DNA from: a virus
Direction: 5' to 3' (one strand)
DNA: 33,791 bases
Virus record (IMG/VR): IMGVR_UViG_3300020169_000058
Coordinates: 1 to 33,791 of that record
Shown here: positions 18,609 to 33,791 of the stretch, piece after piece
Layout of the letters: each line of letters starts with the position of its first letter
How positions within the stretch are numbered: position 1 is the stretch's first letter
Position numbers and translations under genes: made by a program
Notes under the pieces: generated by a model
The model's input: only the letters and a program-made list of their open reading frames with translations
Database searches by the model: none
What the model was told of the DNA's origin: nothing

Positions 18609-19079
18609 ATGAACTCATTTGATGATTTTTATGAATTTCTGTTATCAGAAGATTGTTTCGAAAAATGCTTGGTGTCTTTTATAGATGAACATCAACGACA
18701 ACGATATATAGAGCAAACAGATATCTGGGCCTATAGAGGCAAGATAACTGATCTGTGGATGAGTGGTGATGATACTATTAAGGTAGAAGGCTATGAGCAA
18801 TTTAAGTATATCTCAAGCGGCACTATACATATATTTTATTCACCAGCAGGAGGACCTACTTTCCCCTTGCACTCTGACCCAGTTAATGTTATAATAGAAG
18901 TTATAGACGGATCCAAATGTATTGAAACATTCAATGGAGAATACCACATGAGCTCAGGTCAAAACATGTTTTTGAGAGCTGGTGTTGAACACAGAGCGAT
19001 AAATTATGAGAAGGCATTAACATACAGTTATGGCATTAACGACCCAAACACACTCAGTAGTATACGTAAAGACAACTGA
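18609..19079 (+). CDS. Cupin-fold protein, probable non-haem iron oxygenase-like
   Basis: 156 residues. The second half is a cupin/JmjC-like double-stranded beta helix: FPLHSDPVNVIIEVIDG with His88-x-Asp90 as first metal ligands, a Lys (103) in the strand that often anchors 2-oxoglutarate, SSGQNMFLRAGVEHRA with the distal His128, and a closing strand. The N-terminal ~50 residues are helical and acidic. This fits a small Fe(II) oxygenase or a metal-binding cupin; chemistry and substrate are not known. Start ATG with AAGGA 5 nt upstream. It opens the plus-strand operon and overlaps the first radical SAM gene by 50 nt, so it is probably part of the same modification pathway. Confidence 0.68.
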   Translation: MNSFDDFYEFLLSEDCFEKCLVSFIDEHQRQRYIEQTDIWAYRGKITDLWMSGDDTIKVEGYEQFKYISSGTIHIFYSPAGGPTFPLHSDPVNVIIEVIDGSKCIETFNGEYHMSSGQNMFLRAGVEHRAINYEKALTYSYGINDPNTLSSIRKDN

Positions 19080-20061
19080 GACTTGTAATCTAAACTGCTC
19101 ACATTGTTTTACTTCTGGTATGAATGGTAGAAAGATCTACTTCGATCATATTAAGACAGCTAATTGGTGTAATGAATTAGATACAGGTGATAATCTTATA
19201 CATCTAGAATATCATGGTGGAGAGCCTATGCTAGCTCCCATGAAAAGTCTGCGTGAATTTCACGATATAACAAAAGCACAATGGGGTGATAGAGCTACTC
19301 ACGGTATAACTACTAACCTTGTATTTAAACTTACAGAAGAAAAGCTAGCGTTCTTTAATGAAGTTATTACAGGTGGTAATATAGGTACATCATGGGATCC
19401 TAATATACGTTTTACTAATGAACATCAAAGGAAGATGTGGGAGAATAATGTTAAGCATCTTACATCGCTTGGTCATTCTCTAAAATGTTTTATATCTGTA
19501 TCTAAAGACGTTATAAAATTACAACCTATAGAGATTGCAGACTATATGCACTCATTAGGTATACGAGAGATATCATATGAGAGATTAACTCATGATGGCA
19601 ATGCTACAATCAATACAGATATCTTTCCTCATAATAAAGAGTTAGATGATTGGTGGATGTTAATGCATGAGCAGACTGAGAACCATCCAGTTGAAAATGG
19701 TTTCATGCATTCTGTATATGAGAAGTTTAGTAAAGGTCAATTCAGAATGGGTACGTTCTGTCGTGATTGTGAGCAGAAGATACATACTATAAATGCAGAT
19801 GGTACAGTAGCAGGTTGTCCTAATACAGCTCCTACTATGCATTACGGGCATATAGATACTCCAGCAAAGGAAGTAAGACTAAGTCCTAAGCGTATGGAAA
19901 TTATATCTTGTGAACAGCATGAGAGAGATCCGAGATGTTATTCTTGTCCTGTGTTTATGTATTGCCATTCAGACTGTCATCAGCTAGTATGGATGGATGA
20001 TGTATGTCCTGCCCCTAAAACTTTAATGATGAAACTTGCGAGAGAAAAAGAATGGATCTAA
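19030..20061 (+). CDS. Radical SAM protein with full SPASM domain (A)
   Basis: 343 residues. The radical SAM cluster motif CNLNCSHC gives Cys19, Cys23 and Cys26; YHGGEPML is the canonical SAM-binding GGE motif. The C-terminus is a full SPASM domain: C-x10-G-x4-C (CEQKIHTINADGTVAGC), then C-x2-C-x5-C-x3-C (CYSCPVFMYCHSDC), and a last Cys in DDVCPAP. SPASM enzymes carry two auxiliary Fe-S clusters and mostly modify peptides or proteins (anaerobic sulfatase maturases, PqqE, RiPP maturases). The ATG at 19030 lies 50 nt inside the cupin gene and is the only reasonable start before the Cys motif. Substrate unknown; partner of the three other radical SAM genes in the operon. Confidence 0.9.
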   Translation: MALTTQTHSVVYVKTTETCNLNCSHCFTSGMNGRKIYFDHIKTANWCNELDTGDNLIHLEYHGGEPMLAPMKSLREFHDITKAQWGDRATHGITTNLVFKLTEEKLAFFNEVITGGNIGTSWDPNIRFTNEHQRKMWENNVKHLTSLGHSLKCFISVSKDVIKLQPIEIADYMHSLGIREISYERLTHDGNATINTDIFPHNKELDDWWMLMHEQTENHPVENGFMHSVYEKFSKGQFRMGTFCRDCEQKIHTINADGTVAGCPNTAPTMHYGHIDTPAKEVRLSPKRMEIISCEQHERDPRCYSCPVFMYCHSDCHQLVWMDDVCPAPKTLMMKLAREKEWI

Positions 20062-21089
20062 TTGTAAAACCAACAGAGGCTTGTAACTTCAAATGTACTT
20101 TCTGTTCGTCTACTGATATCGATCCTAATGAGGTTGGTTTATTAGACTTAAACTATATCTACAAGTTTCTTGAGAGATGGCCTGACTGTAATACTATTAT
20201 TGTTAATGGTGGTGATCCTCTTATGGTTAAACCAGAATGGTATCAAGAATTAATCGATCACTTAGATGAACATGATTACAAAGCATCTATATCATTCACA
20301 TCTAACCTATGGCCTTTCTTAATGCGTCCTGAGAAATGGCTTCCTATATTTCAGAATAAAAGGTTTGGCTGTGCTACGTCATTTCAATATGGTGGTGGTA
20401 GATTAAAAGGTGATTATTCAGAGTTTACTGAGAGTGACTTCTGGATGGTGTCTAATGCTATGCTTAAGCATACAGGTGAACGACCTGACTTCATAGCAGT
20501 TATAACAGATGAGAACGAACATCTTGCTATTAAGAATGTTGAGTTAGCAAAAGAGATGGGTGTAGAATGTAAGTTAAATTATGCTATGGCTTCTGGTGTA
20601 CAAGGTACTACATATCAACTATCTAAGATATATGAAACTTATATTAAGATATATGATATGGGCTTAGCTGATTATGAGTTTAATACTAGACAGATGATGA
20701 AACGTTTAGGAGGTTCTGCAACTACTTGTCCTCAGAATAGATTATGTGATACTGGTATTAGAGCTATGAACCCAGGAGGAGATTATTACTCTTGCGGGTC
20801 TTTCGGAGATGATATGGATTATCCTATTGACTTTGAGACTGAAATGAATGGGGAGATGCAGACGCCTCTTCAAGATGATCCTAATATACAGACTATGAAA
20901 ATGTCTTGTTATACTTGTCCTATGTTTGAGATATGTAATGGCTGTAAGAAGACTGTGCGAGATATGAAGAGAGAGGGTATAGTAGAATCTCATTGTAGAC
21001 AGATGAAAACATTAGCACCTCGCATACTTGAGATAAACGGAATGAGTCCTGATGGAGTAACACCTTATGTCGATGAATCTATCAATTAA
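20052..21089 (+). CDS. Radical SAM protein with SPASM-like domain (B)
   Basis: 345 residues. The motif CNFKCTFC gives Cys11, Cys15 and Cys18, very near the N-terminus; VNGGDPLM is the GGE-type motif with Asp in place of Glu. The C-terminal part has C-x10-G-x4-C (CDTGIRAMNPGGDYYSC), then CYTCPMFEICNGC (C-x2-C-x5-C-x2-C, one residue tighter than standard SPASM) and a last Cys in ESHC. It probably binds auxiliary clusters and acts on a peptide or protein. The start overlaps gene A by 10 nt and the end overlaps gene C by 23 nt, pointing to coupled translation and a shared complex or pathway. Exact reaction unknown. Confidence 0.9.
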   Translation: MDLIVKPTEACNFKCTFCSSTDIDPNEVGLLDLNYIYKFLERWPDCNTIIVNGGDPLMVKPEWYQELIDHLDEHDYKASISFTSNLWPFLMRPEKWLPIFQNKRFGCATSFQYGGGRLKGDYSEFTESDFWMVSNAMLKHTGERPDFIAVITDENEHLAIKNVELAKEMGVECKLNYAMASGVQGTTYQLSKIYETYIKIYDMGLADYEFNTRQMMKRLGGSATTCPQNRLCDTGIRAMNPGGDYYSCGSFGDDMDYPIDFETEMNGEMQTPLQDDPNIQTMKMSCYTCPMFEICNGCKKTVRDMKREGIVESHCRQMKTLAPRILEINGMSPDGVTPYVDESIN

Positions 21090-21981
21090 CCCGACATACT
21101 ATTGCAACTTCAGATGTGACTTTTGCTATCTAACTAAAGAACAACTAGGAGATAGACATAAGATATCTCCTGAGCTATTACAGAGTTCTATAGAGCAAAT
21201 AAATGAACCTATATCTCATATAGATTTATATGGAGGTGAAATAGGATTACTGACGTCTGATTACTATTACTCTATTAAAGATATCATACGTAAACGTTAT
21301 GATGGTAATATTCATATCAATACAAACCTCTCAGCATTTCCAGATTTCTTTAGAGATGAAGATGTGACTTTGTCAGTATCATACGATTTTAGTGCACGAG
21401 AAAAAGAACAGTTTGTACTAAATAATATGATGAATGCTAATAAGGATTTAGCTGTACTCATCTTAGCATCACCTAAAGTGTTAGAGATGGATGTAGAGTT
21501 TATGATCTTTACTCTCAATATGGTATCTAATGTTAAATCTGTTGAAATCAAACCCTACTCTATTAATCAAGCAAATGCTCATCCAGTCACTCATAAAGAC
21601 TTCGAAGACTTTGTTATAAGGTTTGACGAAGCTAAGACAGAAAAGAACTTTGACTTTCAAAACATTCATAACATCTATAGAAGTATAGATAAAGAGTATA
21701 ACGCATTCTCATCTGATCATGTGTATATAACACCGTCAGGTAAGTTTGGAGTGTTGGAGTTCGATAAAGATGATAAAGAATATTTTAAAGAGTATAACAC
21801 CTACCATGAATACAAAGAATGGGCAGAGAATGAAGTACGGGATAATCTTAGTCCTATATGTCATAATTGCTCTTACTTTGGCCATTGTCTCACCGAACAT
21901 TACAGGTATGTTTTGGATTTAGATAATAGTTGTAACGGATATAAAGGGCTATTAGATTATTATGCAAGAATGGAAAGCTAG
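21067..21981 (+). CDS. Radical SAM protein with reduced C-terminal cluster domain (C)
   Basis: 304 residues, the shortest of the four plus-strand enzymes. The cluster motif CNFRCDFC gives Cys13, Cys17 and Cys20; LYGGEIGL is the SAM-binding motif. The C-terminus keeps C-x2-C-x5-C (CHNCSYFGHC) and a last Cys about 18 residues later, but lacks the first Cys pair of SPASM, so a single auxiliary cluster or a twitch-like domain is likely. The segment VYITPSGKFGVLEF stands where SPASM would place its first Cys. GGAG precedes the first ATG by 9 nt. It overlaps B by 23 nt and the next gene by 20 nt. Confidence 0.87.
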   Translation: MSMNLSINPTYYCNFRCDFCYLTKEQLGDRHKISPELLQSSIEQINEPISHIDLYGGEIGLLTSDYYYSIKDIIRKRYDGNIHINTNLSAFPDFFRDEDVTLSVSYDFSAREKEQFVLNNMMNANKDLAVLILASPKVLEMDVEFMIFTLNMVSNVKSVEIKPYSINQANAHPVTHKDFEDFVIRFDEAKTEKNFDFQNIHNIYRSIDKEYNAFSSDHVYITPSGKFGVLEFDKDDKEYFKEYNTYHEYKEWAENEVRDNLSPICHNCSYFGHCLTEHYRYVLDLDNSCNGYKGLLDYYARMES

Positions 21982-22363
21982 ACAGAAAGCATACCACATG
22001 ACACAGTCCCTCTTCAGAGATGATTTGAACGAGGTTGATATCAGGTGGGAACCTGACAATATAGTTGATCTTGCTCTTATGCATTTTAAAGAGTATGTTG
22101 ATGAATGGATCTATCCTGCTAAGTCATATGTTGTTGCAATATGCTATGCTAAATGGATTAGTCAAGACTTCAATGAATTTTTCTATGATGTTTTAAATGA
22201 TAAAGAGTTGTTATTTGGTAATGATCCACACTTTGTTCCTTACTTTAAAAGCAAAGAGATATATGATGATATATTAGATCAATTAAACTTTGATATGGAG
22301 CTAGGAATGGTTCCAGACATATATCAATACTATAAAGAGGAAATGTTGATTGGACAACTTTGA
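21962..22363 (+). CDS. 133-residue protein of unknown function in the radical SAM operon
   Basis: Acidic, aromatic-rich and mostly helical; only one Cys, so it is not an Fe-S protein. I do not recognise the family. Features: a Trp/Tyr-rich middle (EYVDEWIYPAKSYVVAICYAKW), FNEFFYDVLNDKELLFGNDPHF followed by VPYF (quoted in pieces), and an acidic C-terminus. It overlaps genes C and D by 20 and 14 nt, so it is made together with them. It could be a partner, chaperone or peptide-recognition subunit for the radical SAM enzymes; no winged-helix RRE/PqqD pattern is evident to me. Confidence 0.75.
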   Translation: MQEWKARQKAYHMTQSLFRDDLNEVDIRWEPDNIVDLALMHFKEYVDEWIYPAKSYVVAICYAKWISQDFNEFFYDVLNDKELLFGNDPHFVPYFKSKEIYDDILDQLNFDMELGMVPDIYQYYKEEMLIGQL

Positions 22364-23432
22364 TTTTACCAAACAACTACTGGAAGATAAACGTCCAGAT
22401 ATAGCTGAGATTGAGATGACTCTCTTTGAGAACTGTCATCTTAACTGCTCTTTTTGTCATCATGATAAGAAGTCTACTGTAGGATTGTCTCGTGAAGAGA
22501 TATTCTCTAAGATACCTTTAGTTGAAGAGCATGTCATAAAGATGAAAGGCCGCGCTGATATAATTCAGATTAATATGCTCGGTGGTGAGTTGTTTCAAGA
22601 TAGAATATCTGAATGGGCTTATGAAGTATACTATGACTTCTTAGTAGAGATTAAAAAGATATATGATGAACATAAACAAAAGATTAAAGTTGTTTGGGTA
22701 ACCTCTTTTCAATTTACTAAACGAGATAGAGTTCAAAAGTTACTTGATGATCTTAATGCTGTAGATATACCCTCTTATATTATTTGCTCATATGACTTTG
22801 ATGGTAGACCTGTCAAAGGTCCTTATGCTAAGAATATAGAATACTTTGCTGACTATATTACATCTATTAATATGGTTGCTACTACTATCTCTATAAAGAA
22901 GTTTATGGCAGATGAAGATGAGTACTTTCATTATCTGTATGAGAAGTTTGATAACTTCTACTTTGATGATTATATTCCTGATCGTGGTTATGATTATATG
23001 ATTCCATCTGATAGTGAATATCTTGAGTTCTTAAAGTTTGTATATCATAACTACCCTGATATCAATCCTATAAAAGACCTTATCTATAATGAGAGTAATC
23101 ATATGCATTGCTTGGCTCTTAATAAGGTTACTATCTTCCCAGATAACTCTACATCAAATTGTAGATGGGATAGATATGATCAGAGAGACTTCAATACAAA
23201 GTATGAACGTAAAGATAATGCTGGTATGATGCAGGCATATATGGACGAGAACGGTTGCCTGTCTTGTAAGTGGTGGAACAAATGTGGCTTCAGATGCTAT
23301 ACACAATGGGATTGGAAGAACCGTGAAAGAGATTTACCAGATTGTATTATGAGAATGTGGTTTAACTATATGGATAAAACTGGACAGAATCTAATCACAG
23401 GGTTTGATTATATGGAAACAGACACTCAGTAA
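22350..23432 (+). CDS. Radical SAM protein with full SPASM domain (D), TTG start
   Basis: 360 residues. The cluster motif CHLNCSFC gives Cys29, Cys33 and Cys36; NMLGGELF is the SAM-binding motif. The SPASM part shows a first Cys pair (CLALNKVTIFPDNSTSNC), then C-x2-C-x5-C-x3-C (CLSCKWWNKCGFRC) and a last Cys in LPDC. Start: TTG at 22350 with AAAGAGG 9 nt upstream; the nearby ATG at 22343 belongs to the frame of the preceding gene, and the next in-frame ATG would leave only six residues before the first cluster Cys. The end overlaps the convergent radical SAM gene E by 38 bp, with a long inverted repeat there. Confidence 0.88.
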   Translation: MDNFDFTKQLLEDKRPDIAEIEMTLFENCHLNCSFCHHDKKSTVGLSREEIFSKIPLVEEHVIKMKGRADIIQINMLGGELFQDRISEWAYEVYYDFLVEIKKIYDEHKQKIKVVWVTSFQFTKRDRVQKLLDDLNAVDIPSYIICSYDFDGRPVKGPYAKNIEYFADYITSINMVATTISIKKFMADEDEYFHYLYEKFDNFYFDDYIPDRGYDYMIPSDSEYLEFLKFVYHNYPDINPIKDLIYNESNHMHCLALNKVTIFPDNSTSNCRWDRYDQRDFNTKYERKDNAGMMQAYMDENGCLSCKWWNKCGFRCYTQWDWKNRERDLPDCIMRMWFNYMDKTGQNLITGFDYMETDTQ

Positions 23433-24414
23433 TAGAGTGATGCTCCATATAAGACTGAACGCCTTTATCAATACAAGTCATCATCTTAGGACAAGTGCTG
23501 CAGCTATTTGTCTTCTCTGTATATGCTATTTGTGACATAAAGTTATTATCTTTAGCTGCCATCCAAGAACTGATATCACTTTCATCTTGTACTCTAAATT
23601 GATCTGTACCTATTAGTACAATATCATATACAAATGGAGTCCAGAAAAATCTATTATTACAGAATGTATAGTTGAGTTCAAGCGAACCACCCTGCGCTCT
23701 ATCGACTATTGTTTTAGGATATAAGTCATCTGAGTAGTCATAATTCTTCCATTTGTTTATTAGATGTTTATGCACTTTAGATTTAGGTGCACGTAAGAAA
23801 GAAGGGTTAAGCTGTATTATAGTATCAAAGCGAAGATCAGCTAGGTAGTTCATTGCCAGAACTTCACTGTTATACTCATCATCGTTACCCATATTATATA
23901 CAAAATAATAATTTAGATCATCTTTAAAGTCATTTAATAACTCTAATCTTTCTTCCATCCTATCCCAATCAACAGGAGGTTGAAGAGCTATATTACAATC
24001 GTACATGAAACCTTCTGCTTTAGGTATTTCATTTAGCATTTTTATTACTTGATGATTAATATTCTCAAGAGTAGTAACAAACTGTATAGTAGAAACTTTA
24101 GATAGACATTCTCTAAATGTTTCATTCTCTAGTAAACTTACTATATTGTTATTACCAAATAGGTCAGTAGGTCCAATATTAATTGTTGACACTCTATAAC
24201 CTTGATTATTAAATAAGTCAATAGCATCATTTAGTTTATCAAACTCACCTACATTACTTCCTAACTTATTTACAAAGCAACCTTTACATTTAAATTCACA
24301 TCCAGACAATATCTCACAATTGAACTGTACTTTAACTTCATGCCCTTTTCTAAAGGTTAAGTCAAAGTCTTTGTCAGCTTGTGCTGCTGATTTATTATTA
24401 GTTATAATACCCAT
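23395..24414 (-). CDS. Radical SAM protein, GPTD family (E)
   Basis: 339 residues. The cluster motif GCEFKCKGCF gives Cys39, Cys43 and Cys46. In place of the GGE motif stands IGPTDLF (81-84), shared by all six minus-strand radical SAM proteins. Other family marks: LNPSFLRAPKSK, then a FFWTPFVY motif and a C-terminal C-x2-C-x5-C-x16-C set (Cys305, 308, 314, 331) that could hold one auxiliary Fe-S cluster, shorter than a full SPASM. It is the last gene of the minus-strand run and starts on the stop codon of its closest paralogue F (TAATG), indicating tandem duplication. Substrate inferred, not shown: the Cys-His-x-Ser tail proteins of the same run. Confidence 0.88.
   Translation of the reverse strand: MGIITNNKSAAQADKDFDLTFRKGHEVKVQFNCEILSGCEFKCKGCFVNKLGSNVGEFDKLNDAIDLFNNQGYRVSTINIGPTDLFGNNNIVSLLENETFRECLSKVSTIQFVTTLENINHQVIKMLNEIPKAEGFMYDCNIALQPPVDWDRMEERLELLNDFKDDLNYYFVYNMGNDDEYNSEVLAMNYLADLRFDTIIQLNPSFLRAPKSKVHKHLINKWKNYDYSDDLYPKTIVDRAQGGSLELNYTFCNNRFFWTPFVYDIVLIGTDQFRVQDESDISSWMAAKDNNFMSQIAYTEKTNSCSTCPKMMTCIDKGVQSYMEHHSITECLFPYNQTL
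23408..23452. terminator. Inverted repeat at the convergent gene junction (possible bidirectional terminator)
   Basis: A 9-bp outer stem TTATATGGA/TCCATATAA (23408-23416 with 23444-23452) encloses a 5-bp inner stem CACTC/GAGTG (23423-23427 with 23435-23439) and a 7-nt loop. It covers the last codons of both convergent genes D and E. No T-run follows on either side, so intrinsic termination would be inefficient; it may act as a bidirectional stop or limit RNA decay and antisense. Confidence 0.5.
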
Positions 24415-25529
24415 TAGCTAGCCTTGAACTCAAACCCTGTTACTAAAGAAACTTCTTTATTATTAGATACACTCTTTAGATCTTTAGATGGGTATACACA
24501 GTCGGTTAACATATGATGTTCCATGTAGCTTAAAACACCTTTATCAATACATGTGAGTATATTATCACACCCACTACACTCACTAGTTAGATTTGAATAT
24601 GTTAATTGTTTTAAGAATTGATCTTCTTTAACTTGTGTCCAAGAATTAATATCATTCTCATCTTGTACTTTATATTCATCTGTACCTATCATAACTATAT
24701 TATATACAAACGGTGTCCAGAAGAAGTTCTCATTACAGTATGTGAAGTTAAGTTCTAACGAACCTCCTTGTGCTTGATCAGCTATAGTAAGAGGAAAGAC
24801 TTCAGTATGATTATCAGTCCATTCTTCTTTTAATGTCTTACTCCATTTCTCTATAAGCTGTTTATGAGTTTTACTCTTTCTAGCTCTAAAGAAACTAGGA
24901 TTAAGTATGAATATAGAATCAAACTCATCCTCTACTATGTAACACATTTCTACAATACGTTTATTAATCTTATCATCATTACCCATATTCATTTGTATAT
25001 GATAATCAGCATCATGAGTAAATAAGTTTATTTTATTAATCGCTTCTTTTAACCAAGATCTGTATTGATCATTATCAACAAACTTATATGGGTCTATTAT
25101 AACATTTATATCATACATAAAACCATCTATCTTAGGTATGGTATTAAGTAGTTCTATTACTTCCTCATCTACATTCTCTAATGTAGTAGCGAACTCTATG
25201 GTAGAGCACTTAGATAACGCTTCTCTGAATACGTCATCATTCAATAACTGCTTTATATTATTATTACCGAATAGATCAGAAGGACCTATATTGATAGTAG
25301 ATACTCTATATCCACTATTGTTAAATAAATCAATAGCGTTATTCAATCTTTCAAATGATCCAATATTACTACCAGCTTTATTTACAAAACATCCCTTGCA
25401 CTTAAACTCACATCCAGATAGTATTTCGCAATTGAATAGGACTTTTATCTCATGTCCATCTCCAACTCCCACATCAAAGTCTTTGTGATAGTTTACAGCT
25501 TGTTGTCTGTTATCTTTAACTACTCCCAC
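24414..25529 (-). CDS. Radical SAM protein, GPTD family (F), GTG start
   Basis: 371 residues from a GTG at 25529. ATGAGG lies 6 nt before it, and this start gives MGVVKDN, in register with MGIITNN of paralogue E; an ATG at 25541 in the same frame has no ribosome site. Cluster motif GCEFKCKGCF (Cys40, 44, 47), IGPSDLF (Thr of the family motif replaced by Ser), LNPSFFRARKSK and a C-terminal C-x2-C-x5-C-x16-C set. Compared with E it has an insertion of about 20-25 residues in the middle and a longer C-terminal tail. It overlaps gene G by 14 nt. E and F are clearly recent tandem duplicates. Confidence 0.86.
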   Translation of the reverse strand: MGVVKDNRQQAVNYHKDFDVGVGDGHEIKVLFNCEILSGCEFKCKGCFVNKAGSNIGSFERLNNAIDLFNNSGYRVSTINIGPSDLFGNNNIKQLLNDDVFREALSKCSTIEFATTLENVDEEVIELLNTIPKIDGFMYDINVIIDPYKFVDNDQYRSWLKEAINKINLFTHDADYHIQMNMGNDDKINKRIVEMCYIVEDEFDSIFILNPSFFRARKSKTHKQLIEKWSKTLKEEWTDNHTEVFPLTIADQAQGGSLELNFTYCNENFFWTPFVYNIVMIGTDEYKVQDENDINSWTQVKEDQFLKQLTYSNLTSECSGCDNILTCIDKGVLSYMEHHMLTDCVYPSKDLKSVSNNKEVSLVTGFEFKAS

Positions 25530-26667
25530 GGTATACCTCATCGTCAAATAGTGCTATAACTTCTTTATTTAGAATACATTCTGATCTACCTTTGAATACA
25601 GTGTCTATAGTCATAGGGATTAGTCTATGTGAGCATATATTTAAATACTTACATTCACCACATTCTTTATCAGAGCTGTTCTTTACTTGATTGATAACAG
25701 CTTTATTCTTATAGGTCATTATAGAGTTTACAACAGACTCTTCTTTATCAATTTTGTAAGCTTCTTTATATATTTGAGCATTCTCATATATGAACGGAGC
25801 CATATACATTTTACCTTGATGTATATTAACAACAGAATAGTTTATAGCTTTATGAGATATATCTCCTTGTAAGAAATGAAACTTACCTTTAAACCTTTTT
25901 GTATCTATTGAGAGTTTACTAAGCATATCATTCCATTCGAATAGCTTTTCACCGTGCTTAGAACTATGATCAAAAGATCTAACTACAGAAGGTAATATCT
26001 CTATTACTGTATGATATCTATCACGTATAAAATCAATAGCGTCATATATTATATCTTCTACACCGTCTACTATATTAGTTGCCATAGACACTTCGAAGTT
26101 AAGAGATGATGCTTTAAACGTTTCTATTCTATCATCTAGCGCTTTTAGATACAGAGGGTCATTTAATAACCTTACAGTATCGATAGCTATCTGTACATCC
26201 CAGGCTTCAGTAGCTTTTCCTAGAGGCGATTGTTCTATAAGTTTAATCTTAGAATCTATATCTTTCTCAGATAAAGAGCCTAGTATAGAACAATTGTGTT
26301 GTATGTTTTTATTACCTGTAGGCATCATACTAATAGCTTCTGCTAATAGTGGATTATTAATTATATCAACTAAGTTTTCTGCACCATAGAAATCAGTAGG
26401 ACCTATTACAAGATCATCTAATACAATATCTGTTCTATCTTTCAACTCAGCTGCTAGTTTGTGGAATAGTGATATAGACTCAGGGTTCCAATTGCCTCGT
26501 CTTTTAACAAAGCAACCTGGACACATATAAGAGCAGCCCTCAAGAACTTCTAGAGCAATCTGAATCTTATACTGACTCATAGCAGCAATTGATGTAAACT
26601 CTTCTAACTTATTTCCATCTACTACTATCTTCTTCCACTCATCATTTAACACTAGTCTGTTTCCCAC
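25516..26667 (-). CDS. Radical SAM protein, GPTD family (G)
   Basis: 383 residues from a GTG at 26667; AGGA lies only 3 nt before it, so a nearby GTG at 26652 (TAGTG with the preceding stop) is an alternative. Cluster motif GCSYMCPGCF gives Cys45, 49 and 52, followed by VKRRGN. The family motif reads VIGPTDFYGAENL. Then ILPSVVRSFDHSSK, a QGKMYMAPFIYENAQIY stretch and a C-terminal C-x2-C-x5-C-x18-C set, two residues longer in the last gap than its relatives. Resembles H more than E/F (both have CPGCFV-x-RRGN). Overlaps the 65-residue gene and F. Confidence 0.87.
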   Translation of the reverse strand: MGNRLVLNDEWKKIVVDGNKLEEFTSIAAMSQYKIQIALEVLEGCSYMCPGCFVKRRGNWNPESISLFHKLAAELKDRTDIVLDDLVIGPTDFYGAENLVDIINNPLLAEAISMMPTGNKNIQHNCSILGSLSEKDIDSKIKLIEQSPLGKATEAWDVQIAIDTVRLLNDPLYLKALDDRIETFKASSLNFEVSMATNIVDGVEDIIYDAIDFIRDRYHTVIEILPSVVRSFDHSSKHGEKLFEWNDMLSKLSIDTKRFKGKFHFLQGDISHKAINYSVVNIHQGKMYMAPFIYENAQIYKEAYKIDKEESVVNSIMTYKNKAVINQVKNSSDKECGECKYLNICSHRLIPMTIDTVFKGRSECILNKEVIALFDDEVYRGSS

Positions 26668-26849
26668 ATCCTACATTGGAAGTTAATACCTGCGTCTGCT
26701 ATCTCATGTGGAGGGTAGCCTTCATCAATTAACCATTTCTTTAGTTTAAAGTTCTTACCTTCTTTTGGAATAAGAGGTAACATTTTAGGAAAGCCATATC
26801 TCCAACCGTTAGGAGGATCAATCATTACTCGTTTAGGTTTAACTAACAT
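26652..26849 (-). CDS. 65-residue protein of unknown function
   Basis: A small compact protein: IDPPNGWRYGFPKMLPL, then a Lys-rich turn, KKWLIDEGYPPHEI and a terminal FQCRMWETD. Small proteins with this IDPP-GW-YGFPK pattern and a C-terminal CRxW occur in marine T4-like phages as hypotheticals (from memory). It overlaps H by 11 nt and G by 16 nt, so it belongs to the radical SAM run. One Cys; no leader-core architecture is evident, so it is unlikely to be a modified peptide itself. It could be an accessory factor or an unrelated gene carried along. Confidence 0.78.
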   Translation of the reverse strand: MLVKPKRVMIDPPNGWRYGFPKMLPLIPKEGKNFKLKKWLIDEGYPPHEIADAGINFQCRMWETD

Positions 26850-27996
26850 AGGATATATTCCTTATACGTTCTAGTTCAGGGTCATCATCTTCGGTTACTA
26901 GAAATCTTTTTCTGTAACCTTTCTTATCATTCTCTACAGAGTAACCATCCCATTCATACATAGTCTGAGCAGGTCCGTTATAGTTATGTATATTGTTTAG
27001 CATATTCTCTTTAGGAGCTATACATCTATCTACTCCAAGATAGTCTCTCAAAGCTATAATCTTTCTATTATAGCAAGAGAAGAATAAAGGACATTCTTCA
27101 CATTCAGTACCTTTAGCTCTATCTATCTGCTCTTCTGTTATTCTAATAGCATCATCAAATGTTTTTACTTTAAACATATCATCATAGATAGCCATGTTCT
27201 CATACATAAACGGGCTAAGATACCAGTCACCTCTCTTATAGTTAAGTACTGTATAGTTCATACCTGCATGAGAATGATCTACCATAATATTGTTTAACTT
27301 AGACTCGCGATGCCATGTGCTAAAGTATTCATTAAATTCATCAAGTGTTTTTAATATTATATTTGCTTTGTGAGAACGAGATACAGAAGGAATAAAATCA
27401 AGTATAGTATCAAAACGTTTTACTGCTTGATCATGTAATGCTTCATAATCTAGTCCATAGTCTTTAATGTTAACAACAAACGTATATGTTACCTCATGTT
27501 GTAAATTCTTATCGATGTACTTTAAGATTTCTGATACGTGTTGTATATAATCTTCATTAAAGAATTTGTGTGGGTTAGTCGCAATACCTATTTCAATTTC
27601 TGTATCGAAGTTTATATTATCAGTAATGTATTTACAAAATCTTTCGATATCTCCATCTATAAGAGTAGATACAAATGCTAGAATAGGGCTATTCTCATTT
27701 ATTATATCTACTAGGTGAGGCATAACTTCATAGAAGTTTTCTGAAGCTAAGAAGTCAGTAGGACCGATAAGCATCTCATCAACGAGTATACCTTGATCTG
27801 TAATGCTTCTTATAAAGTCTTTTGCTTTATTTAATTGATGTTCATCACTAGCATTACCTCGACGGTGCACAAAACAACCAGGACATTTGTGATGACATCC
27901 ATCTAACACATCAAGCTGAATCTTTACTGCTGATACAGGCTTAGTCTGAGTCTCTGTAGTTAGCTCGTAGTATAGGTTATTTTTAATCAGAGGCAT
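26839..27996 (-). CDS. Radical SAM protein, GPTD family (H)
   Basis: 385 residues, ATG start with a weak GAAAGAG site, overlapping gene I by 14 nt. Cluster motif GCHHKCPGCF gives Cys34, 38 and 41, followed by VHRRGN. Family marks: MLIGPTDFLASENF, FIPSVSRSHKAN, DWYLSPFMYENMAIYDD and the C-terminal set CEECPLFFSC with a last Cys 16 residues on (C-x2-C-x5-C-x16-C). A further ~55 residues rich in Tyr, Asp and Arg follow the last Cys and have no counterpart in the relatives. Role inferred as protein/peptide maturase together with G, I and J. Confidence 0.88.
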   Translation of the reverse strand: MPLIKNNLYYELTTETQTKPVSAVKIQLDVLDGCHHKCPGCFVHRRGNASDEHQLNKAKDFIRSITDQGILVDEMLIGPTDFLASENFYEVMPHLVDIINENSPILAFVSTLIDGDIERFCKYITDNINFDTEIEIGIATNPHKFFNEDYIQHVSEILKYIDKNLQHEVTYTFVVNIKDYGLDYEALHDQAVKRFDTILDFIPSVSRSHKANIILKTLDEFNEYFSTWHRESKLNNIMVDHSHAGMNYTVLNYKRGDWYLSPFMYENMAIYDDMFKVKTFDDAIRITEEQIDRAKGTECEECPLFFSCYNRKIIALRDYLGVDRCIAPKENMLNNIHNYNGPAQTMYEWDGYSVENDKKGYRKRFLVTEDDDPELERIRNISYVS

Positions 27997-29008
27997 ACAT
28001 ATACTCTTTCAAGGCAACACAACTGTTCAACTTCCTTGACTTCATATATGTGTGTACGTTTCTCTCTGCGCAGCTCATAATAAACTCACAATCAGAACAA
28101 TCATCAACAGTCTTTGCGTATTCTAAATTATCGGGTAACCAATCCTTATCCATACTTGTTTCAAACTCAGGGGTTCTTTGTATTATAGCATCATATAAGA
28201 ATGGGTTAACATATAGCTTTCCGTTATAGAAGCTATAGTTCTGACATCCAAAACCGTTAAATCTAGCATTAAAGAATGTATAAAGATTTCTCCATTCACC
28301 ATCTATATCTTGCTCAAATAAATCTTTTCTAAACATCTTAAGAAACTTATCAACTTTACCTCGTGCGTTTCTATCCGTTAAGAACGATGGAGTTACAACA
28401 ATAGGTGCATTGAAATCTTCTTTTACTCTAGCGCATAACTCATTGTATGATATATTATTAAATAAGTCTTCTGTATAGTTTACTCTAAACTGAACTGATC
28501 CTATAGCAAACATCTTTATGTTTTCTAGGAAGTTAGGATCTAAATCGTTATCTAAATATGCTTCTACATCAAGCACTATCTTAAAGTCAATGTCAGGTAT
28601 TCTATTAATATTAGTATACAGTTTCCATATTATATCAAGCTTAGGTTTAACTATTTTTGGATCTTGTAATAGTGTTGATGTAAAGCCAACACCACTAATA
28701 CTATACAGATCTTTCATAGATGGATGATTCATTATCTCATCAAAGTTTTGAGCATCAAATATGTCTGTAGGACCTATAGTAATCTCATCTGGATAGAACT
28801 CACCCTCTATTAAAAGGTTATATAGTCCTGTCATGTGATCAGCTGATGTTAAGTTCTTTCTAGGAATAAAACAACCAGGACACATCTGATCACACCCATG
28901 AAGTATGTCCAGATTAATCTCAGTACGTAAGAAATCTATATTAGTAGGACTAACACCATGTACGTAATTATAATATCCTGCTGGAGTTTTATTAAGTTTT
29001 GTTATCAT
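27983..29008 (-). CDS. Radical SAM protein, GPTD family (I)
   Basis: 341 residues. Cluster motif GCDQMCPGCF gives Cys39, 43 and 46, followed by IPRKN. Family marks: ITIGPTDIFDAQNF, VTPSFLTDRNARGK (here the Arg of the PSxxR motif is replaced by Thr), LYVNPFLYDAII and CSDCEFIMSC with the last Cys 16 residues on. It starts within the last codons of the 251-residue unknown gene (17-nt overlap) without a clear Shine-Dalgarno, so its translation probably depends on coupling. It ends on SCVALKEYM, close to J (GCVLPKEIL) and H (RCIAPKENM). Confidence 0.87.
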   Translation of the reverse strand: MITKLNKTPAGYYNYVHGVSPTNIDFLRTEINLDILHGCDQMCPGCFIPRKNLTSADHMTGLYNLLIEGEFYPDEITIGPTDIFDAQNFDEIMNHPSMKDLYSISGVGFTSTLLQDPKIVKPKLDIIWKLYTNINRIPDIDFKIVLDVEAYLDNDLDPNFLENIKMFAIGSVQFRVNYTEDLFNNISYNELCARVKEDFNAPIVVTPSFLTDRNARGKVDKFLKMFRKDLFEQDIDGEWRNLYTFFNARFNGFGCQNYSFYNGKLYVNPFLYDAIIQRTPEFETSMDKDWLPDNLEYAKTVDDCSDCEFIMSCAERNVHTYMKSRKLNSCVALKEYMYASD

Positions 29009-29747
29009 CGGTCAATAACAAGTCATCTGGGAAGAACTGAACTATCTGACTTGTGAGATTAGTCTCACATAAAATATGATAAAGGTCTTTACCAAAGTAT
29101 TTTGGAGAATCATTATAGGTTTGCTTATTAAACTCTCTGGATAATCCTTCTTTACTAAGTATTAGTAGTAAAGCATCATAGCCTGTAGTAAGTAGCCTAG
29201 CTATATTAGGTCCACAAGCAGCGGGCTTGTCATGTATGGTTATATCATTAACAAGCTCAGCTAAGTTAACTTCCTTTGCTTTCATAGCATCATCAAAACC
29301 TTCATATAGTTTATATAGTGCAAAAGGTACAGATGAAGCAACAGACTCAATTAAATCTTCTACTAATTGTTTGTGGTCTTCTATAAACTTAAATATAAGC
29401 TTAGGAGGAAACATCCATAGTAATTGGCTCTCTTGTTCAGTAATATCATACCTATAATAAAACTTAATAATAAGAACAACCACCCTAGACAGTAAGGGAC
29501 AATCAACCATAAAGTCTGATTTGATATAAGCCAGAATTAAGTCTTCATCTATACCAGAGAAGGTTGTCTTAAAGTTTGTATTAGCTAGATAGATTATAAT
29601 GTGATTTGCAGATAGTTTTTCTTTACTCTTAGCATAATCAACCCAAAGGACATAATCCTCTAGTGTTGCTTTATCTTTGTATATCTGTACAAGATGTTGA
29701 GGAGAGAGTGGCAACTCATAACATGAGTTTATATCAGGTATTGTCAT
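28992..29747 (-). CDS. 251-residue protein of unknown function in the radical SAM run
   Basis: I do not recognise this family. It is acidic and mostly helical, with repeated hydrophobic helices (ALYKLYEGFDDAMKAKEVNL, YDALLLILSKEGLSREF) that could form a helical-repeat scaffold. Four scattered Cys, no CxxxCxxC. A hydrophobic segment LLSRVVVLIIKFYYRY is not long enough to be a convincing membrane helix. AGAGGAAAA ribosome site 8 nt or so before the ATG. It lies between the 367-residue unknown and gene I. Possible partner or docking protein for the maturases, or a virion protein; nothing in the sequence decides. Confidence 0.78.
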   Translation of the reverse strand: MTIPDINSCYELPLSPQHLVQIYKDKATLEDYVLWVDYAKSKEKLSANHIIIYLANTNFKTTFSGIDEDLILAYIKSDFMVDCPLLSRVVVLIIKFYYRYDITEQESQLLWMFPPKLIFKFIEDHKQLVEDLIESVASSVPFALYKLYEGFDDAMKAKEVNLAELVNDITIHDKPAACGPNIARLLTTGYDALLLILSKEGLSREFNKQTYNDSPKYFGKDLYHILCETNLTSQIVQFFPDDLLLTDDNKT

Positions 29748-29761
29748 AATAAATTTTCCTC

Positions 29762-30865
29762 TTACAGTGGATATTTGTGAATAAGATAAGGAATGCGGTT
29801 TTGTCTCTTAGAGAAGAACTGAACATCTGTATTAATTAATTTAAGATCAGTTGTTAGGTTATCCATATCAAAGTCGTTTTGTAATACTTTACGAACGATA
29901 GGAAATACGTTCTTAAACTCTGTGTACAAGTCCATATATTCCCAACCTGTTGCATCACTATCAGCTTTACTTTGATGTGCTAGAATAAATGCAGCATCAT
30001 CTTTAACTAGGTTCCATAACTCTTCTAACTTATAAAAAGCAGCTGTGTAGTTACCAGCGTTTGCTTTTACAACATAACAATCTTGAATCCAAGCAGTCTT
30101 ATCTGTAGCATACTGAGAATTGCGAGATATATTAGCGTTCATCCAATCAATAACAGAAAGAATATATGCTAAGTAATGACGTCTTGATGTAAAGTGTTCC
30201 ATCACATCTTGTGCCATAGTAGATTGATGCACAGTAAACTTCTCTTTTATAAGTGATTGTACAGAAGCAGTTCTATGATAATCATTTAACCAGAATAAAA
30301 GATCATAACTAAAGTTCTTACCATTCTGATAAATTACAGTATAAGGAGTTACTGCGCCACCTCCTGAGTCTGTGGAGAATAGTGTATCTACATGATTTGA
30401 TACGTCATTAAACTCCTCATTAGCTAATACCATAGTCATCATAACATCCATAGAGAATATTTTCTCAAGAAATGCTCCAACCATGGATGTGATATTAGTA
30501 TTATCAGGATAAAAATTAGAAGCTGTTAACAATCCATGAGTATATCTTGCAAACACTTTAATCATATCAGCTGCTGTTGCGAATAAGAGTATACGCTTAT
30601 CACTATTCTGTATATAGTCTATATTATCTACATCATCAAAGTCCATGTAAGAAAGATATGAAGAAGCGCCTGATCTTACACCTTCAGCAATAAGGTTATA
30701 TTGACCTTCAACCATAAATCCACCTGTAGATGGTCTAACAATGATAATATTTCTAGCAGTTTCGTTATGGTAGTATGAATTTAACTCACCAACTACAGTA
30801 CCTAAATTATCCATTGTTGTGATGTACTTAGTGTTATTTAAGTAATTAAGATTTTGACCTATCAT
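29762..30865 (-). CDS. 367-residue protein of unknown function in the radical SAM run
   Basis: Not recognised. Ser/Thr/Tyr/Asn-rich first half (NIIIVRPSTGGFMVEGQYNL, VRSGASSYLSYMDFDDVDN) followed by a mainly helical second half rich in Trp, Tyr and Phe (AAFYKLEELWNLVKDDAAFIL). A single Cys, so not an Fe-S protein. No signal peptide or membrane segment. GGAG lies 7 nt before the ATG, and the start is 2 nt after the stop of radical SAM gene J. Its composition would suit a virion or baseplate-associated protein as well as a substrate-binding partner of the maturases. Confidence 0.8.
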   Translation of the reverse strand: MIGQNLNYLNNTKYITTMDNLGTVVGELNSYYHNETARNIIIVRPSTGGFMVEGQYNLIAEGVRSGASSYLSYMDFDDVDNIDYIQNSDKRILLFATAADMIKVFARYTHGLLTASNFYPDNTNITSMVGAFLEKIFSMDVMMTMVLANEEFNDVSNHVDTLFSTDSGGGAVTPYTVIYQNGKNFSYDLLFWLNDYHRTASVQSLIKEKFTVHQSTMAQDVMEHFTSRRHYLAYILSVIDWMNANISRNSQYATDKTAWIQDCYVVKANAGNYTAAFYKLEELWNLVKDDAAFILAHQSKADSDATGWEYMDLYTEFKNVFPIVRKVLQNDFDMDNLTTDLKLINTDVQFFSKRQNRIPYLIHKYPL

Positions 30866-30867
30866 GG

Positions 30868-32046
30868 TTACGCTCCGTCTTTCATTTTATATTGAGTTGC
30901 ATCATCATTCCAAGTAAAGTCGAATGGATTATAGTACTTCAAGATTTCTTTAGGTAGTACACACCCGTCTATGTTTAAGCTTTCTTGTGCTTCAAATACT
31001 AATCTGTTAGCACAAGCAATAGCAAATTTACAATCAGAGCAATCTTTTACCTTACTAGATCTATTTATACCTTTTGTTATAAGTTCGTTCTTACGCTGTA
31101 AGATCTCTTCAAAAGATAGTCCAGTCACATCTAAGTTCTTATTAGATAAGAAGAATGCTTGTTCATGAAGCATTACATTAAGATGCGTTGTTGGTCCATG
31201 CTCACCAGGTACAATAGTTATACCTACAAAGTTAATTGAGTTACAGTAAAGATTAGCCATTGACATAACAGCTTGTTTACTATTCTCTTCATCGATAACT
31301 GACTCTAAAAATCTATTCCAAGCAAATAAGTTATTACGTTGAATAATCTGATTAGGTGCTCTTGCAAATGCTGGATTCATCTCTACGATTGTTCCATAGT
31401 CATTGTAAGAACGATCAGTTAGTCTGTCATACTTTTCTTTATCTATTTGCTTTCCTACTACATTAGAAGCTTGTAGAGTCCAAGACCAATCCATCATCTT
31501 AGGAGTTTCGTTTTTAAAGAACTCTATCTTCTCCATAACAGAGTTATAATACTCATCGTCGTCTAACATTTCATTAATACGACCAATAGGCATAATAAAC
31601 TCAATAACCATATCGCGTCTATATGCATCAAGGTCATCTAGTATAGCAAATATCTCTCTAACTTTCTCCATAGAAGCTTTATCAAACTTAGCAGGAGAAG
31701 CAATACGTGCTCCTGTATGTTCTCTCATTATAGCTTGTACTGTAGGATTAGTCAAGATATCTTTTGTATTTTTTGCTGAAAATAAATCGGTAGGTCCAAT
31801 AACAAACTCTCTTAGGTTACCTCCTACACGCTTTACACCATCAGCTAACTCTTTAGCTCGATCAATAATCTGTTGATTAACTTCTGGATCAATAGCTTTA
31901 TCAACAAAACATCCAAGACACCCTTGCTCACAACCAGACAATACTTCCATCTGGATTAGCACATCAAACTTAGTTGCATCAGATGGTGCTAGACTTTCCG
32001 GTCCAGAATATCTCATCTGTTTACAATATGATTTTTGCATAGTCAT
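30868..32046 (-). CDS. Radical SAM protein, GPTD family (J), next to the CHxS proteins
   Basis: 392 residues from the ATG at 32046, which overlaps the preceding stop (TAATG) and has AGAGGA 9 nt upstream; a longer reading to 32097 would lie inside the CHxS gene. Cluster motif GCEQGCLGCF gives Cys39, 43 and 46. Family marks: FVIGPTDLFSAKNT, MNPAFARAPNQ and CSDCKFAIAC with the last Cys 16 residues on. Its PF-x-YE region is diverged, so J is the outlying member. It is the enzyme gene directly coupled to the two CHxS proteins and therefore the first candidate for their maturase. An internal TATAAATA (31062-31069) could start a transcript for the genes behind it. Confidence 0.88.
   Translation of the reverse strand: MTMQKSYCKQMRYSGPESLAPSDATKFDVLIQMEVLSGCEQGCLGCFVDKAIDPEVNQQIIDRAKELADGVKRVGGNLREFVIGPTDLFSAKNTKDILTNPTVQAIMREHTGARIASPAKFDKASMEKVREIFAILDDLDAYRRDMVIEFIMPIGRINEMLDDDEYYNSVMEKIEFFKNETPKMMDWSWTLQASNVVGKQIDKEKYDRLTDRSYNDYGTIVEMNPAFARAPNQIIQRNNLFAWNRFLESVIDEENSKQAVMSMANLYCNSINFVGITIVPGEHGPTTHLNVMLHEQAFFLSNKNLDVTGLSFEEILQRKNELITKGINRSSKVKDCSDCKFAIACANRLVFEAQESLNIDGCVLPKEILKYYNPFDFTWNDDATQYKMKDGA
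31062..31069 (-). promoter_or_regulatory. Late-box match inside radical SAM gene J (uncertain)
   Basis: Perfect TATAAATA on the minus strand within the coding sequence of J, 197 nt before the start of the 367-residue gene. It encodes part of Gly-Ile-Asn-Arg, so it may be chance. If used, it would give late expression of the genes from 30865 down to gene E. Confidence 0.22.
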
Positions 32047-32435
32047 TAGCGTCTTCCTCTCGATGAATGGCAGCTTGTGTGGCAACTTGTATGGCATAAT
32101 ACAGCAGATATAGATCTATCCGTCATTCGCCCTTCAATTAGATCAACAGTTCTTCTTACTCCATCCTCTAACGTGTCTACAATATCTTGTGAATAAATTC
32201 TTGAACCAGCACTTACTCCTCCATCAATATAGTTATCAAATAAGCTATTAGCAGCTCCAGTATACTCAAATCTATGGCTAGTAGTATTAGATGTAGTTTG
32301 ACCTACTGCTACTCCAGCATCTAACCCGATGTATACAGTTGTAGTTATACTAATAGTTTTATCAAATGTACGGAGCTTTGCGCCAGCATAAGTTTGCATA
32401 TAACTATCTAAACTATCTCGAGTTAAATTACCCAT
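32046..32435 (-). CDS. CHxS-tail protein 1, probable radical SAM substrate
   Basis: 129 residues. A ~110-residue body without any Cys is followed by the tail CHTSCHTSCHSSRGRR, with Cys114, 118 and 122 and His115, 119 and 123. The body shares LRTFDKT, RFEYTGAANSLFDNY, GSRIYSQ and RTVDLIEGR with its neighbour, so the two are paralogues. All Cys and the His-x-Ser repeats are confined to the last 16 residues, as in leader-core RiPP precursors; His-x-Ser repeats are known targets of a bacterial radical SAM system (HxsA with HxsB/HxsC). Alternatively the tail binds a metal at the tip of a trimeric fibre, as HxH motifs do in phage fibres and spikes. TAATG overlaps on both sides; no haem or signal peptide. 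Confidence 0.82.
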   Translation of the reverse strand: MGNLTRDSLDSYMQTYAGAKLRTFDKTISITTTVYIGLDAGVAVGQTTSNTTSHRFEYTGAANSLFDNYIDGGVSAGSRIYSQDIVDTLEDGVRRTVDLIEGRMTDRSISAVLCHTSCHTSCHSSRGRR

Positions 32436-32857
32436 TACCTACGACCTCTCGATGTATGACAGCTTGTATGACAAGAGTTATGACAAAGCAAACCATTAAT
32501 AGATCTATTTCCAATTCTGCCTTCTATCTGATCTACTGTTCTTTGCATAGTATCACTTATTGAATTAATAACGTGCTGTGAATACATACGCGAACCTGTA
32601 TAGATATTACCGTTTAAGTAATTATTATATAATGAATTAGCAGCACCTGTATATTCAAATCGTTCACTTCTAGCTTGAGTAGATGTAGCACTACGGAATG
32701 CAGTAGAGTATGATGTGCCACCTGGGTATTGGTTTGTACCACCTGTACTTTCATATATATAAGCTGTTACATTAAAGTTAACTGTCTTATCAAAAGTTCT
32801 AAGCTGACTTCCAGCTTGAGATTGTAAACTACTATTATTTTGTGCATATGTTGGCAT
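32435..32857 (-). CDS. CHxS-tail protein 2, probable radical SAM substrate
   Basis: 140 residues, paralogue of CHxS protein 1. The body (LRTFDKT, RFEYTGAANSLYNNY, GSRMYSQ, RTVDQIEGR) contains no Cys; the tail is LLCHNSCHTSCHTSRGRR with Cys125, 129 and 133. An extra Gly/Tyr/Thr-rich loop (STGGTNQYPGGTSYS) near residue 40 separates it from paralogue 1. The gene begins 2 nt after the collagen-like fibre gene and ends in a TAATG overlap with paralogue 1; the AGAGGTCGTAGG codons for its Arg-Gly-Arg-Arg end supply the ribosome site for the next gene. Linkage to a fibre suggests a small virion protein that is modified after translation. Confidence 0.83.
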   Translation of the reverse strand: MPTYAQNNSSLQSQAGSQLRTFDKTVNFNVTAYIYESTGGTNQYPGGTSYSTAFRSATSTQARSERFEYTGAANSLYNNYLNGNIYTGSRMYSQHVINSISDTMQRTVDQIEGRIGNRSINGLLCHNSCHTSCHTSRGRR

Positions 32858-32859
32858 TA

Positions 32860-33791
32860 CTAAACTTTAACCTCAATTATTCCTTCACCGTCTTCTAGAG
32901 CTACTCCAACTAGTTCTAAGAAGTTTATCTCTGCAGATCTAGTTCCAGGAATTGCTTTACATTTACCGTCTGCATCTGCTACTATATAGTCACCCTTTTT
33001 AGCAGCTCCATTTATCTTACATGGGATACGTCCTTTAAGAGCAATGAATGGCCATAGCGGATCCTCTTTATTTTCTTCAGATACGTTCATTCTAAGCCCA
33101 GGCAATGTAGATATAACACCAGCAATAGCCATGCCAGGTTGCCACATAGTAACTTCTTCATCACCACCAATACCTAATAGATCACCTGGTTCATATACCG
33201 TATCAGCTAAATATTTCTCCGCAAGGTCAGACCAGTTAGCAGATGCTGCAGTACCTTGATAGATACCTGAGTTATCAACATACGATACATCGGAGTTGTT
33301 TCTTCTAAACTGAACAATTCTGTTTGAAGATGAGTCTGCAACAATATACCATCTATTTGAGTGGTATTGAATTTTACCTTTTGTGCCCGGATCACCAGTC
33401 CAGTTAGATGAAGCATTAGAGAAAAGACCACCGTTAGTAATATCAAGGTTTCCTCCACCAAATACACCAATCTCACCTTTCTGACCTTTAGAGCCTGTAC
33501 TACCAATCTCACCCTTTTGACCTTTAGATCCTGTACTACCAGTTGATCCAGTTGAGCCAGTATTACCTGTATTACCAGTTTGGCCTTTCTGACCTTTTTG
33601 ACCTTTAGCGCCTGTAGAACCTGTACTACCAGTTGATCCGGTTGAGCCAGTAGATCCGGTTGAGCCCACTTCCCCTTTTTGGCCTTTCTGTCCAGTTGAT
33701 CCAGTATTACCTGTATTACCGGTTTGGCCTTTTTGACCTTTCTGGCCTACTTCGCCCTTCTGGCCTTTCTGTCCCTTTTCACCTTTCTGGC
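32860..33791 (-). CDS. Collagen-like fibre protein (partial, N-terminus off window)
   Basis: The last 309 residues; the Gly-x-y frame runs unbroken through the right edge, so the GTG at 33669 is internal and not the start. The visible repeat region has over 30 Gly-x-y triplets, largely GST, GNT, GQT, GQK, GSK, GEI and GEV, with 15 Lys, all in the Y position followed by Gly (x-Lys-Gly, the site used by lysyl hydroxylases). After GVFGGG comes a ~200-residue C-terminal domain ([66 protein letters not shown]), a type of fibre end domain common in marine T4-like phages. Inferred role: host-recognition or neck/tail fibre, trimeric, and likely target of the hydroxylase-glycosyltransferase fusion at 16042-17967. 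Confidence 0.88.
33469..33791 (-). repeat. Collagen-like Gly-x-y coding repeat
   Basis: Degenerate 9-nt-unit repetition coding for Gly-x-y triplets, continuing past the window edge. Two alternating blocks are seen: Lys-rich (GQK/GEK/GSK with GEV/GEI) and Thr-rich (GST/GNT/GQT). The block order Lys-Thr-Lys-Thr-Lys repeats almost exactly, so the region has probably grown by unequal exchange of ~100-nt units. It is protein-coding, not a DNA-level array. Confidence 0.9.

Follow-up and report, generated by a model that had tools for sequence, protein, structure and literature searches.

A widespread family of phage proteins with a conserved (CHxS)3-RGRR tail as candidate substrates of radical SAM enzymes encoded beside virion genes

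Repeats of the form His-x-Ser next to radical SAM enzymes are known from the bacterial His-Xaa-Ser (Hxs) system HxsA/B/C/D (Haft and Basu 2011, as cited in PMC9062424). The phage proteins described here resemble the Hxs system in that they have His-x-Ser repeats (three per protein) and are encoded beside radical SAM enzymes, but they differ from it by a Cys before every His, a period of four residues, exactly three repeats, an Arg-Gly-Arg-Arg (RGRR) end and their location in phages. The maturases of three-residue cyclophanes (XyeB, FxsB, DarE, DynA, AmcB and others) are radical SAM/SPASM enzymes of the same type as the phage enzyme that we call rS1, and their aromatic-x-residue target spacing is like that of His-x-Ser, whereas the putative phage substrate is large and has three repeats. 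The maturases of ranthipeptides and sactipeptides (PapB, CteB) share with the phage system a Cys-rich repeated target; of all models rS1 matches that of PapB best, and one of the solved structures nearest to it is CteB, but the phage tail lacks a Cys-x3-Asp or Cys-x3-Glu pattern. As in the precursors of ribosomally synthesized and modified peptides (RiPPs) generally, a conserved core-like part is paired with an adjacent gene for a candidate modifying enzyme. The logic of substrate and enzyme is known; the substrate, its partners and the setting are new.

Phages have been noted before in which several radical SAM genes lie within structural or host-recognition regions, a feature shared with the locus studied here. 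Aeromonas phage 332-Vera has eight of them inside its structural gene cluster, an arrangement called "highly unusual" (PMC12390700), and several are present in phages FLC6 (PMC8066314) and SURPRISE13 (PMC11898562) and in the host-recognition region of pelagimyophages, in which radical SAM cassettes vary within the host-recognition cluster (PMC7029224). The portions of these reports available to us propose neither a substrate nor a function. Both FLC6 and SURPRISE13 carry the tail described below, as found by tblastn. A description of this tail was not found in the open-access literature, and in that literature the remark of an earlier note on this DNA, that a His-x-Ser variant with an added Cys has no described function, holds.

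The DNA analysed here, referred to as the window, is a linear IMG/VR fragment of 33,791 bases that belongs to a T4-like myovirus, as indicated by strong matches to PHROG families of the major head protein, head protease, portal, tube, sheath, terminase and connector. The genes of its cassette are as follows.

17979..18542, minus strand: 2OG-Fe(II) oxygenase (PF13759, E 4e-13), recurs in cassettes
18609..19079, plus strand: cupin/JmjC-like protein just upstream of rS1 (Cupin_2, E 3e-5; 2e-9 in phage DT01)
19030..20061, plus strand: rS1, radical SAM/SPASM enzyme (CNLNCSHC), constant enzyme partner of the tail
20052..21089, plus strand: rS3, radical SAM enzyme with a weak SPASM match (CNFKCTFC; Pfam Radical_SAM, E 2e-7)
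21067..21981, plus strand: rS4, radical SAM enzyme (CNFRCDFC; Pfam Radical_SAM, E 7e-8)
21962..22363, plus strand: s133, small cassette protein
22350..23432, plus strand: rS2, radical SAM enzyme (CHLNCSFC; PHROG 1802, E 2e-19)
23395..24414, minus strand: radical SAM enzyme (CEFKCKGC)
24414..25547, minus strand: radical SAM enzyme (CEFKCKGC)
25516..26667, minus strand: radical SAM enzyme (CSYMCPGC) with a SPASM-like C-terminus
26839..27996, minus strand: radical SAM enzyme (CHHKCPGC; Radical_SAM, E 5e-4)
27983..29008, minus strand: radical SAM enzyme (CDQMCPGC)
28992..29747, minus strand: p251, constant partner of the tail (PHROG 20767)
29762..30865, minus strand: p367, function not assigned, found in two-copy (type A) loci (54 loci)
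30868..32046, minus strand: J, radical SAM enzyme (CEQGCLGC), start ATG overlapping the stop of A, specific to the two-copy architecture
32046..32435, minus strand: CHxS protein A, 129 aa, paralogue of B (51% identical)
32049..32096, minus strand: tail of A, CHTSCHTSCHSSRGRR
32435..32857, minus strand: CHxS protein B, 140 aa, its exact C-terminus being the tail, body without Cys
32438..32485, minus strand: tail of B, CHNSCHTSCHTSRGRR, with C, H and R columns invariant in the alignment
32860..33669, minus strand: 3' part of a collagen-like tail-fibre gene, immediately upstream of the two CHxS genes and running towards the edge of the window

Proteins A and B both end with the same 16-residue arrangement, three Cys-His-x-Ser repeats followed by Arg-Gly-Arg-Arg, or (CHxS)3-RGRR, and their bodies contain no Cys and one His each. 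The two tails are identical at 14 of 16 positions in protein but only at 34 of 48 in DNA, which means that selection acts on the protein. The picture of two paralogues with diverged, Cys-free bodies and nearly identical tails, drawn earlier from the letters alone, was thus reproduced (51% identity overall versus 14/16 in the tails), as was the direct stop-start coupling to J: stop and start overlap as TAATG between B and A and again between A and J, whose ATG lies at 32046. The AlphaFold2 model of protein B is of moderate confidence (pLDDT 78, lower in the tail), and a fold search with it returned no matches at E <= 0.001 and no known virion fold.

The segment 23395-29008 of the minus strand holds, in series, five radical SAM genes in addition to J that are related to each other and to J. 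Ten radical SAM genes in a window with one type of tail are too many for a single reaction, and some of them may act elsewhere. Another gene of the minus strand (16042-17967) encodes a fusion of a glycosyltransferase of family 25 with a PLOD-type glycosyltransferase domain (E 3.6e-45) and a weak 2OG-oxygenase match. This fusion resembles collagen lysyl hydroxylase/glycosyltransferases, and the same phage has a collagen-like GQKGQKG tail fibre; a full-length homologue of the fibre gene at the window edge (locus L004, 8934-10001) matches both Collagen and tail fibre. From these domain matches, the fusion could be an enzyme that modifies the collagen-like fibre.

Profile searches over 228 loci revealed a recurrent gene order: fibre gene, cupin, rS1, CHxS protein, p251, one or two radical SAM genes (B_rS2, rS2), rS3, rS4, s133 and 2OG-Fe(II) oxygenases. 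The window and its relatives have a divided cassette, with the duplicated tail gene beside the fibre gene and J, and with the block cupin-rS1-rS3-rS4-s133-rS2 located about 12 kb away on the opposite strand. Radical SAM genes adjoin almost every tail gene that has enough flanking sequence. Of 82 single-copy loci, 69 have rS1 as the gene directly upstream of the tail gene, the median gap being 5 bases. The earlier note pointed to the coupling with J, but the constant partners are rS1 and p251. J as the key enzyme was rejected, since it has no close-neighbour role in single-copy loci and is local to the two-copy architecture.

The association of the tail with rS1 and p251 was followed in both directions. 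A tail conserved in phages with no radical SAM genes, which the earlier note had named as the observation that would speak against a radical SAM substrate, was not encountered. Among 50 tail-bearing IMG/VR records, p251 is encoded in all 50 and the rS1 family in 47; the three others are short fragments (18, 31 and 37 kb) in which other radical SAM genes are present, and in two of them (L106 and L128) the contig starts at the tail gene, so that the usual position of rS1 is missing. In the reverse direction, the tail was found in 27 of 38 rS1-bearing records. The remaining 11 break off 2 to 10,913 bases past rS1, which is less than the distance in the window, where the tail starts 11,985 bases downstream of this gene. 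A search of 50,697 phage records with rS1 gave seven matches, all seven of which encode the tail. Six of these were already known from tail matches, and the seventh is Sinorhizobium phage Phosso, where the presence of a tail was predicted from rS1 before the adjacent gene was read; this gene ends with CHTSCHASCHSSRSRR. Some rS1 matches (in G012, G046 and G051) have in-frame TAA codons inside the matched range, which is probably due to the match overrunning the natural stop.

The tail is found far beyond the window. Searching with protein B by tblastn produced matches confined to the tail in phages of Agrobacterium, Burkholderia and Pseudomonas, the bodies being otherwise dissimilar. A degenerate DNA pattern of the tail with 15 fixed bases, scanned against IMG/VR and 257 Gb of cellular genomes, is present in at least 119 IMG/VR stretches, in at least 116 of which the tail is the exact end of a reading frame. 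The same pattern read backwards has no matches in 38 records, and the occurrence of the tail exceeds chance. In the cellular genomes, 19 stretches have the pattern and 12 of them an exact C-terminal tail, all 12 in contigs titled MAG, bin or bacterium isolate. A host-encoded tail was rejected on the grounds that there are just 12 true tails per 257 Gb of genome contigs and that their surroundings are mostly viral-cassette-like. The isolate phages with the tail are six: Burkholderia phages FLC6, FLC8 and SURPRISE13, Agrobacterium phage Atu_ph07, Sinorhizobium phage Phosso and Pseudomonas phage SNUABM_DT01. The number of repeats is three in all 190 tail copies found, a count to be read with the fact that the pattern itself demands three repeats and would miss shorter tails; two-repeat tails were not seen in the loci fetched via rS1.

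In contrast to the tail, the bodies are diverse. Comparison of homologues, proposed earlier as a check, gave for 78 diverse members a mean pairwise identity of 0.853 (85%) in the tail versus 0.225 (22%) in the bodies. Throughout the alignment of these members and among 142 unique proteins, every Cys and His and all three Arg of the tail are invariant. The Ser is invariant in the first repeat of the alignment and nearly so in the second and third. The bodies are 110-290 aa long, differ from lineage to lineage and contain no Cys in 101 of 136 cases; BLAST comparison of these 142 proteins, among the matches listed, yielded two large groups along with two pairs and five singletons. At the level of sequence, a leader/core-like contrast between body and tail, together with a tie to radical SAM enzymes, is strongly supported.

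What is known about the constant partners comes from their conserved residues and from profile and fold searches. In 21 diverse members of the rS1 family the invariant cysteines are C19, C23 and C26, which form the CxxxCxxC motif, and C263, C303, C306, C312, C316 and C326, with a SPASM pattern C-x2-C-x5-C-x3-C and one further Cys. The enzyme passes the SPASM domain model TIGR04085 (29 bits versus a cut-off of 27). Its best models are those of peptide maturases such as PapB, DarE and DynA, all of which it matches below the cut-off, and the nearest solved structures by profile are the radical SAM protein 8vpo, CteB, ChlB and anaerobic sulfatase maturases. At the level of the curated models, membership of rS1 in the PapB family (44.1 bits versus a cut-off of 340) was rejected, as was its membership in any named cyclophane maturase family (DarE, DynA, AmcB, XyeB and YhhB, 20-43 bits versus cut-offs of 425-650; for DarE, 35 bits versus 650). 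The Hxs system, to which the tail had been likened earlier, fared similarly: rS1 scores 31.1 bits against the HxsB cut-off of 370, rS3 (20052-21089) scores 23.4 against 267.9 for HxsC, and neither tail protein matches an Hxs model among NCBIfam results at E <= 0.1, so that membership was rejected and what stands of the likeness is the His-x-Ser repeat itself, with a Cys added to each. For p251, a confident AlphaFold2 model (pLDDT 91) matched no PDB fold, and its fold matches below E 0.001 among viral proteins are uncharacterised proteins of other cassette phages, including Atu_ph07 and Ralstonia phage RSF1. Profile searches of the PDB with p251 and with the tail family returned matches at chance level only. 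No PqqD Pfam match, which would mark a RiPP recognition domain, was present among the cassette proteins scanned, and rS1 has no N-terminal extension able to hold such a domain.

Several observations connect the tail protein with the virion. In all four lineages examined the cassette is preceded directly by tail-fibre or virion structural genes. In Agrobacterium phage Atu_ph07 the tail protein is gp170, flanked by p251 (gp169) and rS1 (gp171). According to the report on this phage, ESI-MS/MS of virions placed most virion proteins in three clusters, one of which is CDS 170-215 (PMC6102473). RefSeq uses the same numbering (portal gp198, prohead core gp204, capsid gp215), and gp170 thus opens this cluster, which the detected capsid protein gp215 closes; judging by the published cluster boundary, gp170 was probably itself detected in Atu_ph07 virions. 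A further hint comes from two independent contigs in which a Gly_rich_2 domain (PF21722, E 1.8e-10) is joined to the initial 46 residues of the body and the rest of the protein, tail included, follows as a separate gene (L014, 4204-5569; L076, 2264-3629). The domain that splits the body is glycine-rich and adhesin-like. This arrangement suggests that the N-terminus of the body may be an interchangeable docking module of an appendage. Location of the tail protein in the virion is strongly suggested, and we think it likely that the protein stays there.

We propose that the CHxS proteins are a widespread phage family of virion-associated appendage proteins, whose variable bodies would dock on the tail-fibre or baseplate region and whose (CHxS)3-RGRR tails would serve as the substrate of rS1 acting together with p251, joined in most phages by more radical SAM enzymes, a cupin and 2OG-Fe(II) oxygenases. 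Taken as a whole, this explanation is in our view reasonably probable; that the tail is modified is, of its parts, very likely. The spacing of His-x-Ser is that of three-residue cyclophanes, and Cys offers thioether chemistry. The likeliest chemistry would be one intramolecular cross-link per repeat, either a carbon-carbon bond within His-x-Ser, of the three-residue cyclophane type, or a Cys thioether, and cross-linking of some kind has about an even chance of being the reaction. The infecting particle would in this way carry a tip that is rigid and resistant to chemicals, with a role in adsorption. RGRR is the probable recognition site of the enzyme, that is, a C-terminal follower instead of a leader; we infer this because the bodies are too variable to contain a common leader and the Arg residues are invariant.

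Other explanations have to be weighed against this one. HxH motifs bind iron or zinc in some phage fibres and spikes, and the tail may be an unmodified metal-binding tip, with Cys and His residues from the repeats of several chains holding iron or zinc and with other fibre proteins as the targets of the radical SAM and 2OG enzymes. The invariance of every repeat Cys and His, the lack of Cys in most bodies and the adjoining fibre genes, one of them collagen-like with a PLOD-type enzyme near, are what one would expect of such a tip; it leaves unexplained, however, the nearly perfect co-occurrence with rS1 and p251 as well as the conservation of Ser in all three repeats and of the terminal Arg, and we hold it rather unlikely. 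The tail may also be the core of an ordinary RiPP precursor, modified, cleaved off and released as a peptide against the host or competitors, as the leader/core-like contrast and the series of maturase-like radical SAM genes would allow. Yet neither a protease nor an exporter was recognised in the cassette of the window, bodies of this length are long for leaders and vary with the lineage, and both the gene position and the Atu_ph07 cluster indicate virions, which makes release of a peptide unlikely. The earlier reading of the tail proteins as RiPP-type substrates consequently stands in two respects, the leader/core-like contrast and the tie to radical SAM enzymes, while the context favours a virion appendage with a predicted modified tail over a released RiPP.

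The excess of enzymes over what a short tail needs may be accounted for if the tail acts as a tag by which rS1, p251 and the other enzymes find the appendage, the modified residues being on other fibre proteins. A nearly invariant sequence, as expected for a binding site, and the adjacent fibre genes fit with a guide of this kind, but repeated reactive Cys, His and Ser residues are the usual target of SPASM enzymes and not a docking motif, and we consider a mere tag quite improbable. It is, finally, conceivable that rS1 oxidises the Cys or Ser of the repeats to formylglycine, whose aldehydes would bond to amines of the host surface. Almost the whole of the rS1 profile can be aligned with anaerobic sulfatase maturases (4k37, 1.3e-7) and there are weak matches to TIGR03942; CteB and other peptide maturases, however, match equally well or better, and the CxPxR or SxPxR motif of sulfatases is absent from the tail, making formylglycine highly improbable.

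The preferred explanation, an appendage protein of the virion with a tail modified by rS1, p251 and further oxidative enzymes, has a bearing that goes beyond the window. Unrelated T4-like and jumbo phages may share a dedicated machine, composed of rS1, p251, the cupin and additional enzymes of the radical SAM and 2OG types, from which the C-terminus of a virion appendage protein receives a covalent structure, probably a cross-linked one. The CHxS proteins would then be a new class of radical-SAM-modified proteins in which an RGRR follower replaces the leader, a proposition for which we see the chances as evenly balanced. A candidate substrate can now be named for the radical SAM clusters of phages, and the same enzyme family is found across T4-like, Rak2-like and phiKZ-like phages. 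Several of the phages with the tail are in culture, and virion proteomes that already exist can therefore be used to test the question. Should the modification prove real, phages build a part of the infecting particle by radical chemistry, and the genes for it lie in a region tied to host recognition. This would be new biology, and it would supply new enzymes for peptide modification together with a tag that is short and portable.
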